DNA of 32,539 nucleotides from a bacterium (GTDB taxonomy: Bacteria > UBP6 > UBA1177): NCBI GenBank assembly GCA_017997475.1, contig JAGOEX010000005.1:1-32539 (forward strand), in the 5' to 3' direction. The translations under genes were made by a program, and so were the position numbers. Below, piece by piece: positions 25,357 to 28,457 of this stretch. How positions within the stretch are numbered: position 1 is the stretch's first letter; the number at the start of each line of letters is the position of its first letter. Below the pieces are notes generated by a model. The model was not told the DNA's origin and made no database searches. It saw only the letters and a list, made by a program, of their open reading frames with translations.

Positions 25357-26298
25357 TCAAAGCGAAATCTGATTAATTTTTGAGCTTATTGTGTTCATGT
25401 ATTTTTCTTTCATTTCTTCATTTAGAAATGAGTTTTGAATTATTTTTGAACTTTGAGAAAGTGAACTAATTATCCTGTCGATGATGGATTCTTTAACCTT
25501 TTGAATTAATTGCAGGTTTTTGGCAAGGTGATCGAAGTCAGATTTTTTAAGCTTTGATTTTTTTCCGTTTATTGTGAGTGCTGATTCTTCTTTGTCAGAT
25601 GGAATAACTATTGCGGTATTAAGAAGATCATATGCGGGTGCAAGCTCTCGAAAATCGGGCAAACGATAAAAAAGTGAATAGTTCTTTAAATGCATGTCGG
25701 CGTTCCCTGTCAGAAACGAAAAAACAACCATTTCAAAAAGCCGTTGAAGATCGTATCCTGAGTTTGAAGAGTGTTTCTCAATGATTTTTCCAATCTGTTC
25801 AACTGATCCCCTGTATTTATCTTCGGTCATCCTTTCCTGAAGCTGGCACATATCTTCCATGTGAAGCTTTCCCGATTTTGATCTGTCGATCCTTTTTGTG
25901 ATATATGCAAGTTCACCGCTTTGAAATTTTATCAAGGCGTGGGGAACGGTTTTAATTCCGCAGTGCTCTGCAAGGTGCATTGTAAGATGTTCATTTTCAG
26001 GAAGAAATGGATAGGTCGGTGATGACGGTTTTAAAATATATGATCCCCAAAGTCCGACAATCGTGAGTTTTCTCCCTTTTTCTTTGACCGATTTTGATAA
26101 ATGAAGTGAAAGTTTCGGCTGAACTCCGGTAAGAGTAATGCTTTTTAATACAGTTTCTTCAGCGATCTTGTTGATCTCATCAAGTTTATATTCAAGAACT
26201 GGAGCAGCATCAGAGCCGAAAAACTTTTTAGAACAGATCGGGTGATATTCAGTCCCGTTTATATGAGGTTTCCCACAGATAAGACAGATATTTGTCAT
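25357..26298 (-). CDS. hipT: HipT toxin kinase of a HipBST system
   Basis: A 313-aa HipA-core Ser/Thr kinase without the N-subdomain 1 that full HipA carries. Features: a putative zinc knuckle C5-x2-C8...H19-x2-C22; the Gly-rich loop T55-L-T57-G-V-Q-P-K62; ATP lysine K90 in YILKP; catalytic N199-A-D201-M-H-L-K-N206; metal Asp224 in APAYDL. In E. coli HipT the two loop positions are serines (SIS) that are autophosphorylated and control toxicity; here they are Thr-Leu-Thr. E. coli HipT targets TrpS; the target here is unknown. The ATG overlaps the hipS stop (ATGA). Confidence 0.9.
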   Translation of the reverse strand: MTNICLICGKPHINGTEYHPICSKKFFGSDAAPVLEYKLDEINKIAEETVLKSITLTGVQPKLSLHLSKSVKEKGRKLTIVGLWGSYILKPSSPTYPFLPENEHLTMHLAEHCGIKTVPHALIKFQSGELAYITKRIDRSKSGKLHMEDMCQLQERMTEDKYRGSVEQIGKIIEKHSSNSGYDLQRLFEMVVFSFLTGNADMHLKNYSLFYRLPDFRELAPAYDLLNTAIVIPSDKEESALTINGKKSKLKKSDFDHLAKNLQLIQKVKESIIDRIISSLSQSSKIIQNSFLNEEMKEKYMNTISSKINQISL

Positions 26299-26621
26299 TG
26301 TTTTTCCCTCCGTACTGAAACTGCGCCGATAACATCACTGCAACAGGCAAGAAGAAGCTCCATTCTGTCTTTTGAATTGATCTTCCAGCTTTTCCATGCA
26401 ATATCGAGGAGCCATCCTTCCGGAATAAGTCCGTCAAAAAACGGAAACATAACCGGTGATTCATATGGCTCTTTTCTTAAAGGAATTGTGCAACTTATGG
26501 CAATTGAACCGCTTTTGGAAACATAATCAGGATCATAAGTGAATCTGTACCCCGTTTCGGTTTCTTCAATAATTCCCGCAAACTCATCATGCATGAAAAC
26601 AAATCCGGTTTTTCGGCTCAT
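26295..26621 (-). CDS. hipS: HipS antitoxin of a HipBST system
   Basis: A 108-aa protein equal to the N-subdomain 1 of HipA: GFVFMHDEFAGIIEE...YRFTYDPDY at the start, then ISCTIPLRKEPYES and FFDGLIPEGWLLDIAWKSW. In characterised HipBST systems HipS, not HipB, is the main antitoxin. A Trp of HipS that enters the HipT active site has been described; Trp70 in PEGW is a candidate, from memory of that work. The gene sits between hipB and hipT with 4-nt ATGA overlaps on both sides, so stoichiometry is set by coupled translation. Confidence 0.88.
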   Translation of the reverse strand: MSRKTGFVFMHDEFAGIIEETETGYRFTYDPDYVSKSGSIAISCTIPLRKEPYESPVMFPFFDGLIPEGWLLDIAWKSWKINSKDRMELLLACCSDVIGAVSVRREKQ

Positions 26622-26833
26622 TTGTCACCTCTTTCGATTTGAACAGGAGCCATTTCGTGCCCGAACAGCGCAAGAACCTGATTGATCTTGTCAAGCCGGA
26701 GAGTAGCTTTTCCCTGCTCCAGTTCACGGATGAACCGCAGACCCGTTCCACTCCGTTCAGAAAGCTCAAGCTGGGTCATACCGAGCATTTTTCTTCTTTT
26801 TTTAACAAAATTTCTAAGTTTTTCTGAACTCAT
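26618..26833 (-). CDS. hipB: HipB-type HTH repressor of a HipBST system
   Basis: A 71-aa Xre/HTH_3 protein: RNFVKKRRKMLGMTQLELSERSGTGLRFIRELEQGKATLRLDKINQVLALFG is a full five-helix HTH. It lacks a long C-terminal tail. ATG at 26833 was chosen because GAGG, located inside operator 1, is 6 nt upstream; an earlier in-frame ATG (26845) lies within the operator and has no SD. It binds its own promoter region, presumably the three palindromes described here. First gene of the operon hipB-hipS-hipT. Confidence 0.9.
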   Translation of the reverse strand: MSSEKLRNFVKKRRKMLGMTQLELSERSGTGLRFIRELEQGKATLRLDKINQVLALFGHEMAPVQIERGDK

Positions 26834-26834
26834 A

Positions 26835-26854
26835 TTATACCTCATCGGGTGTAA
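26835..26854. promoter_or_regulatory. HipB operator 1
   Basis: TTATACC-N6-GGTGTAA, where the right arm reversed is TTACACC (6 of 7 matches). It overlaps the hipB ribosome binding site and lies downstream of the transcription start. Confidence 0.75.
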
Positions 26855-26972: not shown

Positions 26973-27021
26973 AATTTGCGATTTTATTTCTAAAACATCA
27001 TAATATTGGCGGATTTGGAAA
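26973..27021 (+). repeat. 49-bp direct repeat, copy 1
   Basis: It matches 28409-28457 at 48 of 49 positions (one A/G difference). The copy lies before the CGGC-domain gene and contains a promoter. The rest of the gap between hipB and the CGGC gene holds the hip operators and this repeat, nothing else seen. Confidence 0.9.
26976..27004 (+). promoter_or_regulatory. Promoter in repeat copy 1 (CGGC-domain gene)
   Basis: TTGCGA (26976-26981), 17-bp spacer, CATAAT (26999-27004). It lies about 55 bp before the ATG of the CGGC-domain gene. Confidence 0.6.
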
Positions 27022-27403: not shown

Positions 27404-27439
27404 TTGAAATACACAAACATTCTATTTGATCTGAACTGA
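27404..27439 (+). pseudogene. Truncated 5' end of a HAD phosphatase gene
   Basis: TTG (27404) with GGGAG 5 nt upstream encodes [11 protein letters not shown] and then TGA. Twenty-eight bases (27405-27432) are identical to 29045-29072, the start of the intact HAD gene. This is a leftover gene start, not a functional gene. The rest of 27440-27568 carries two tandem GACATTTT words and the promoter of the next gene. Confidence 0.7.
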
Positions 27440-27509: not shown

Positions 27510-27537
27510 TTGACTTGTATTTTATAAGATGTAAAAT
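27510..27537 (+). promoter_or_regulatory. Promoter of the toxin-antitoxin fusion gene
   Basis: TTGACT (27510-27515), 16-bp spacer, TAAAAT (27532-27537). Two similar words (TGTATTTTATAAG and TGTAAAATAAG) lie side by side over the spacer and -10 and could be a ribbon-helix-helix operator; this is inference. Confidence 0.55.
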
Positions 27538-27568
27538 AAGAATGTTTTAGATTCTTTATAGGTGTCTA

Positions 27569-28162
27569 ATGAGATTTGATATTGAAAAAGATTTAAGATT
27601 GCAAAACGAGCGTGGCATAAGCTTCGAAATGATAATTGAAGCGATTTCTGAGGGAAAGGTTTTGGATGATATCGCTCATCCCAAAAGAGAAAATCAGAGA
27701 GTTATGCTGGTTGAAGTTTCAGGAGATGTTTATTTTGTGCCGTATGTTTTAGAAAAAGACGGGAACATTTTTCTTAAAACGGCTTTTATTAACAGAAAGT
27801 ACAGAATGAAAAATTCAAAGGAGGAAGAGATGAATAATAAAAAGAAGAATGATGGCACATTTTTTGTTAAAGAACCTGATTTTACATATAATTCTGAAGA
27901 AATCGAAGAAAAAGAGCTTCATGATCTTTATGAGTCCGGTGCGTTCACTGCGGTGACAGACGAAAGAAAAAAAGAACTCGCTGAAGATGCTAAAAAAACG
28001 CTTAGTGAAATGAGAGCGATAAAGAGCATAACTCTAAGAATTAACAGCGATATTCTTGAAATGATCCGCAGAAAAGCCGACGCTGAAAGAATTCCGTATC
28101 AGACACTAATGCAGCTTGTTTTAAGCCAGTTCGCCCAGGGAAAAATAAAAATTCACATTTAG
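27569..28162 (+). CDS. BrnT-like toxin domain fused to RHH (CopG-type) antitoxin domain
   Basis: A 197-aa ORF joining two parts normally encoded separately. Residues 1-82 resemble the small BrnT/DUF4258-like toxins (NERGISFEMIIEAISEGKVLDDIAHP, then strands ending FLKTAFINRKY). Residues 88-197 resemble the paired antitoxin: an acidic helix (ELHDLYESGAFTAVTDERKKELAEDAKKTL) and a ribbon-helix-helix at about 152-188 (KSITLRINSDILEMIRRKA...). Met88 is preceded by a perfect SD, so an antitoxin of 110 aa may also be made. A TGA overlapping that ATG in the +1 frame suggests the ancestral genes ended/began as ATGA and an indel fused them. AGGTG precedes the first ATG. Confidence 0.75.
   Translation: MRFDIEKDLRLQNERGISFEMIIEAISEGKVLDDIAHPKRENQRVMLVEVSGDVYFVPYVLEKDGNIFLKTAFINRKYRMKNSKEEEMNNKKKNDGTFFVKEPDFTYNSEEIEEKELHDLYESGAFTAVTDERKKELAEDAKKTLSEMRAIKSITLRINSDILEMIRRKADAERIPYQTLMQLVLSQFAQGKIKIHI
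27819..27832 (+). promoter_or_regulatory. Internal SD and ATG for free antitoxin
   Basis: AGGAGG (27819-27824), 5 nt, then ATG (27830-27832), in frame with the larger ORF and at the exact toxin/antitoxin domain junction. The spacing equals that of good starts elsewhere in the window. Confidence 0.65.
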
Positions 28163-28168
28163 AGAAAT

Positions 28169-28315
28169 ATGAACAAATCAGATGCTTTGCTAACACTTAT
28201 CGCAATTGCCGAAAAAGATATTGAATTAGGGAACTTGATTGAGCAGGATGATGTTTTTTCTAAGATTGAGAAAGAGAACCCATGGTTGAAAAACGAACAA
28301 AAATCAAACTTGTAG
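28169..28315 (+). CDS. Small ORF, possible antitoxin
   Basis: A 48-aa ORF (MNKSDALLTLIAIAEKDIEL...) with the pattern IAEKDIELGNLIEQDDVFSKIEK, like the C-terminal toxin-binding helices of small RelE/ParE-partner antitoxins (D-I-x-x-G...E-D/E-V). No DNA-binding part is present and there is no clear SD. It overlaps the next ORF by 34 nt, as TA pairs often do. The assignment is by pattern only. Confidence 0.4.
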   Translation: MNKSDALLTLIAIAEKDIELGNLIEQDDVFSKIEKENPWLKNEQKSNL

Positions 28316-28407
28316 GCAGACACGGATTCTTTTATCAACTTAGAAAAGCGATGTGTTTTGGCTTGTATGTCGTCCAAAAAAGGGGAAGTTCTTTTTGTAA
28401 GTTATAA
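28282..28407 (+). pseudogene. Possible truncated ParE/RelE-like toxin ORF
   Basis: A 41-aa ORF beginning MVEKRTKIKL, a start like that of many ParE/RelE toxins, but it then loses any family pattern. It ends with TAA 1 nt before repeat copy 2, which suggests truncation at a rearrangement border. It may also be non-coding. Confidence 0.3.
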
Positions 28408-28408
28408 T

Positions 28409-28457
28409 AATTTGCGATTTTGTTTCTAAAACATCATAATATTGGCGGATTTGGAAA
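28409..28457 (+). repeat. 49-bp direct repeat, copy 2
   Basis: A near-identical copy (48/49) of 26973-27021, 1,436 bp downstream in the same orientation, here in front of the GrpB-family gene. Confidence 0.9.
28412..28440 (+). promoter_or_regulatory. Promoter in repeat copy 2 (GrpB-family gene)
   Basis: TTGCGA (28412-28417), 17-bp spacer, CATAAT (28435-28440), 40 bp before the GrpB-family ATG. Confidence 0.6.

Follow-up and report, generated by a model that had tools for sequence, protein, structure and literature searches.

We found that a BrnT-like toxin domain and an RHH antitoxin are encoded together in a single open frame of the window, the whole stretch of 32,539 nt that was analysed. 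The sequence makes it reasonably likely that this is a type II toxin-antitoxin module reduced to one gene: a brnT-like toxin gene would have become fused in frame to the RHH antitoxin gene downstream of it, with the ribosome-binding site and start codon of the antitoxin being retained; this judgement is a joint one and covers the two-product mechanism proposed below. Toxin and cognate antitoxin are encoded together, as in a type II operon, and the matching domain pair forms two-gene operons in 30 relatives. Neutralisation of the toxin through binding of the antitoxin is predicted.

Domain composition of the fused gene

The fused open reading frame lies at 27569-28162 on the forward strand and encodes 197 aa without a stop codon throughout. 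Residues 1-79 form a BrnT/DUF4258-like toxin, whose domain is placed at residues 3-79 (27575-27805, forward strand), with Pfam, the invariant residues and the topology of the AF2 model as evidence; residues 88-197 (27830-28162, forward strand) form a CopG/BrnA-type RHH antitoxin. In Pfam, CopG_antitoxin (PF12441) passed its cut-off on residues 88-197 (32.5 bits against 28), whereas DUF4258 (23.1 bits against 25) and BrnT (PF04365; 19.0 bits against 34.5) were both sub-threshold on residues 1-87. For L029, an unfused relative from the toxin group of the fusion, the BrnT score is above the cut-off (36.8 against 34.5), and we place this group in the BrnT family as a divergent branch. The description in the earlier note of a BrnT-like domain running in frame into an RHH antitoxin is thus borne out. 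The fusion received no assignment from NCBIfam and no call of any kind from PADLOC, and a sequence search of the PDB with it returned no meaningful match.

The AF2 model of residues 1-87, built on a two-sequence alignment, showed two helices and then a beta-sheet (pLDDT 78.9). When this model was searched with Foldseek, the top places were occupied mostly by BECR-type toxins (HigB2, CdiA toxins and ParE1), the best E being 0.08 and none significant. A two-sequence alignment also underlay the model of the full fusion, which was of poor quality (pLDDT 65.6) and with which Foldseek was uninformative; confidence in the structure models of the fusion and of the toxin domain is low to moderate. The toxin domain is predicted to be a ribonuclease, and may be toxic.

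Counterpart in another genus, unfused relatives and origin of the fusion

The same fusion, again without a stop codon and with 76% amino acid identity, was found in a MAG from a second genus within this family (G003, SLOD01000147.1; gene at L014:3001-3588). Homology between the two covers 27522-28162 only, from the promoter to the stop codon, and the surroundings are unrelated and non-syntenic, which is consistent with the fusion having been moved or kept as a unit. The window comes from a draft assembly of 323 contigs, in which two genes might be joined by a sequencing or assembly error; however, the in-frame fusion recurs on an independent MAG contig whose DNA differs by 25%, and the linkers of the two genes differ by exactly 6 nt, that is, by two codons. 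As a related genus shares this layout, the fusion is no sequencing slip, and we give the error explanation next to no probability. An erroneous base that parts the two genes, which the earlier note had named as the finding that would speak against the fusion, is very unlikely.

Selection was estimated from the two fused genes (Nei-Gojobori), with synonymous sites near saturation. The toxin domain gave a dN/dS of 0.077 and the antitoxin one of 0.094, which places both domains under strong purifying selection; in the fast-evolving linker (residues 80-96; 27806-27856, forward strand) the value was 0.73. Ten residues that are invariant in 31 unfused toxins (K7, L11, R15, F19, Q43, V57, P58, L69, K70 and T71) were all retained in both fusions, and so was R76-K77. 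Because the dN/dS is low and all ten invariant residues are kept, we infer that the toxin domain is maintained by selection; an active state of the toxin is a prediction. The toxin part departs from its unfused relatives at W3, N8, Y53, P74 and S75, and these changes may reduce its activity.

When a profile of the pair was run against 386 genomes, matches were obtained in 79, and among the matches listed the fusion occurred only in the genome of the window (G000) and in G003. The antitoxin was a separate downstream gene in 30 of the 30 distinct unfused pairs that were checked; an ATGA or GTGA overlap was seen in 14 of them, in two the genes share a frame and a stop lies between them, and the remainder overlapped or followed in another frame. 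Both unfused pairs of the same family (L003 and L004, from two genomes) have the ATGA overlap, and in unfused relatives an SD-like stretch stands ahead of the separate antitoxin start. No relatives were detected among phage genomes and viral contigs, and the plasmids examined carried unfused relatives only, among them pairs from Piscirickettsia and Calothrix. These unfused BrnT-like/CopG pairs, on the plasmids as at L003 and L004, have the same two domains in the same order as the fusion but as separate genes with an overlap or a short gap. The last ~33 antitoxin codons (L015:3001-3099 and L016:3001-3093; 79-81% identical) lie directly 3' of an ATPase gene that is DUF4143-like by eye in two genomes from a different family within the order, and these fragments are probably decayed copies.

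A +1-frame TGA overlaps the internal ATG at 27831-27833 (forward strand), and the earlier note took it as the probable relic of an ancestral ATGA overlap that was lost when an indel fused the two genes. The TGA is present, and the ATGA arrangement in unfused relatives, including both pairs of the same family, agrees with this reading; alone, the TGA is not evidence, as it arises from any ATG followed by A. With another +1-frame TGA further upstream, at 27807-27809, an indel that fused the genes would have to lie within the ~7 codons ahead of M88. An ATGA overlap followed by an indel is thus a plausible history. Loss of a stop codon would be a second route, because toxin and antitoxin share one frame with a single stop between them at L022, L023, L075 and L076, and a fusion would also result from such pairs. 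In three of these (L022, L075 and L076, from three genomes of one order) the junction reads AGGAGGG-stop-ATG in frame, with the stop intact and AGGAGG inside the tail of the toxin, and one substitution there would give the fused layout. In the same three pairs, readthrough of the single conserved stop would yield a fusion protein.

Internal start at the junction and proposed mechanism

The perfect AGGAGG-N5-ATG that the earlier note placed at the junction was recovered in frame at 27819-27832. It consists of a Shine-Dalgarno sequence (27819-27824), a spacer of 5 bases (27825-27829) and the ATG of M88 (27830-27832), all on the forward strand, and it is identical in the L014 gene though the linker carries the 6-nt indel and the adjoining residues are altered there (KEE to EEA). 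The antitoxin part thus has, at the level of sequence, its own conserved in-frame ribosome-binding site and start within the larger gene, from which a free antitoxin of 110 aa is predicted; the region around this start is predicted to be unstructured.

The window contains 7 copies of AGGAGG-N(4-9)-ATG where shuffles give 1.1, more than chance would produce, and an in-frame AGGAGG 4-9 bases before an internal ATG was found for none of 159 ATG codons in 13 other genes of the window. Given the amino acids and the local codon usage, the chance of AGGAGG arising by codon choice was p ~0.078 here and 0.076 in L014. All nine bases of the SD and ATG were retained between the two genes, where the surrounding identity is 64% (p ~0.02). 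Two reasons make these figures modest: the fusion is known in two sequences only, which keeps the statistics small, and the SD presumably goes back to the unfused ancestor, so that the figures describe its persistence. The retention of the internal SD-ATG in sequence and spacing, despite near-saturated synonymous divergence, favours the synthesis of two products, the fusion and a free antitoxin. Long open frames at 12 other BrnT matches were checked as well, and one true BrnT-BrnA fusion was found (L066, G380:C43:95300-97100); it is independent and has an in-frame ATG at the natural start of the antitoxin with a weak AGGA-N7 SD, which hints that the internal-start layout may recur. The remaining long frames were rejected as upstream read-in, except L071, a long downstream frame without a recognisable antitoxin.

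In the mechanism that we propose, ribosomes starting at 27569, where only a partial SD (AGGTG) is present, would make the 197-aa fusion, and ribosomes starting from the better site at 27830 would make more product, giving an excess of free 110-aa antitoxin. Dimers would form between RHH domains, whether free or tethered, and keep the toxin domain inactive, and dimers that mix fused with free chains would repress the promoter at ~27510-27550. If the antitoxin were lost, through a protease or competition, the toxin domain, probably a BECR-fold RNase, would be exposed. A sigma-70-like promoter (TTGACT-16-TAAAAT) is present at 27510-27537 on the forward strand; alone it is not above shuffle expectation, and L014 has TTGACA-16-TATAAT in the same place. 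The 22-nt block over the -10 and the leader (27528-27549, forward strand) is identical at 21 of 22 positions in L014 and is a possible operator. An autorepressed, pre-neutralised toxin with two products is in our judgement the best explanation and a fairly probable one, in which we infer everything beyond the sequence features.

The 197-aa protein might also act alone, dimerised through its RHH part as an auto-inhibited toxin and repressor like EzeT, with the internal SD-ATG as a relic. Single-polypeptide modules do function in other families (EzeT, PMC4826407; fused BECR-antitoxin genes, PMC11980606), but AGGAGG-N5-ATG has stayed exact in two genera despite the fast-evolving linker, and we consider this explanation unlikely. 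It would be rather improbable, too, that the gene is a domesticated repressor, that is, a DNA-binding regulator with an inactive toxin domain as a tethered accessory. The substitutions at P74, S75, Y53, W3 and N8 relative to unfused toxins and the rarity of fusions would suit such a role; the toxin dN/dS and the kept invariant residues speak against it, since drift would be expected in an inactive domain unless it were needed for contact with the antitoxin.

Ribosomal frameshifting in the A-rich stretch of the junction would additionally yield free toxin that ends at a nearby out-of-frame stop. A-rich codons do follow ATG88 and out-of-frame stops are near on both shifts, but no classical heptamer is found in the right phase at the junction and the positions of the out-of-frame stops differ between the two genes, which makes frameshifting very improbable.

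Known fused modules and genomic surroundings

BrnTA fusions have been catalogued previously, 33 being described, of which 31 carry RHH antitoxins (PMC11980606, mBio 2025). The present gene resembles them in that a BrnT-family toxin at the N-terminus and an RHH antitoxin at the C-terminus occupy one open frame, the arrangement of the fused BECR toxin-antitoxin monogenes of that study; it differs in that the toxin belongs to a divergent branch below the Pfam cut-off for BrnT and the antitoxin is of CopG type (PF12441). Internal starts, SD sites and frameshifts are not mentioned in the main text of PMC11980606. Rpn is, according to its authors, the first characterised antitoxin encoded within its toxin gene (PMC10327210). 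In RpnL/RpnS, as here, the antitoxin corresponds to the C-terminal end of the toxin gene and has an in-frame internal start; however, Rpn belongs to the PD-(D/E)XK nucleases, its helical C-terminal domain is unrelated, and it has internal transcripts too, and unlike Rpn the fused gene is clearly descended from a type II operon of two genes. EzeT, too, unites toxin and antitoxin in a single polypeptide, for which an origin by fusion of a bicistronic operon has been proposed (PMC4826407), but its toxin is a zeta kinase and, because its antitoxin is N-terminal, no internal start could yield the antitoxin by itself.

Fused modules and intragenic antitoxins were thus each known already, and the gene described here combines a BrnT-RHH fusion with an Rpn-like internal start. 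For fused genes one has to ask how a toxin that is never parted from its antitoxin can act or be regulated, and a conserved internal antitoxin start would be a simple answer, with two products in an adjustable ratio. We tentatively suggest that fusion of a classical operon, with the toxin gene first and the antitoxin gene second, directly gives a gene-within-gene module, in which the old ribosome-binding site of the antitoxin persists as a selected internal start and the balance between tethered toxin and free antitoxin depends on how strong this start is compared with the upstream one, and that this could be a general rule for the catalogued fusions. If this were true, one evolutionary step would link fused modules with intragenic antitoxins, and annotated toxin-antitoxin fusions are worth re-examining for missed antitoxin starts.

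The fused gene sits in a variable stretch that extends from a hipAB-like module to the HAD-mscL genes, and different genes are present there in G002. A 49-nt direct repeat (26973-27021 and 28409-28457; 98% identical, two copies only in the genome) brackets a CGGC-domain gene together with the fusion and is possibly the footprint of a duplication or insertion. Upstream of the promoter region of the fusion, the HAD gene (29044) is copied over 35 nt of its 5' end (27405-27439; 91%), a sign of local rearrangement. The remnant of a second toxin-antitoxin pair was observed at 28169-28407, where 48 aa resemble the C-terminal end of a Phd-like antitoxin and a toxin frame begins that has decayed; G003:C146 (L061) has a counterpart of this pair that seems complete, and a further remnant lies between HAD and mscL in G002. 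On the reverse strand, at 25357-26845, HipA is split into two ORFs, for an N domain (26295-26621) and a C domain (25357-26298), beside an HTH gene, with 85% DNA identity in G002, and this organisation would fit a three-gene HipBST-like layout.
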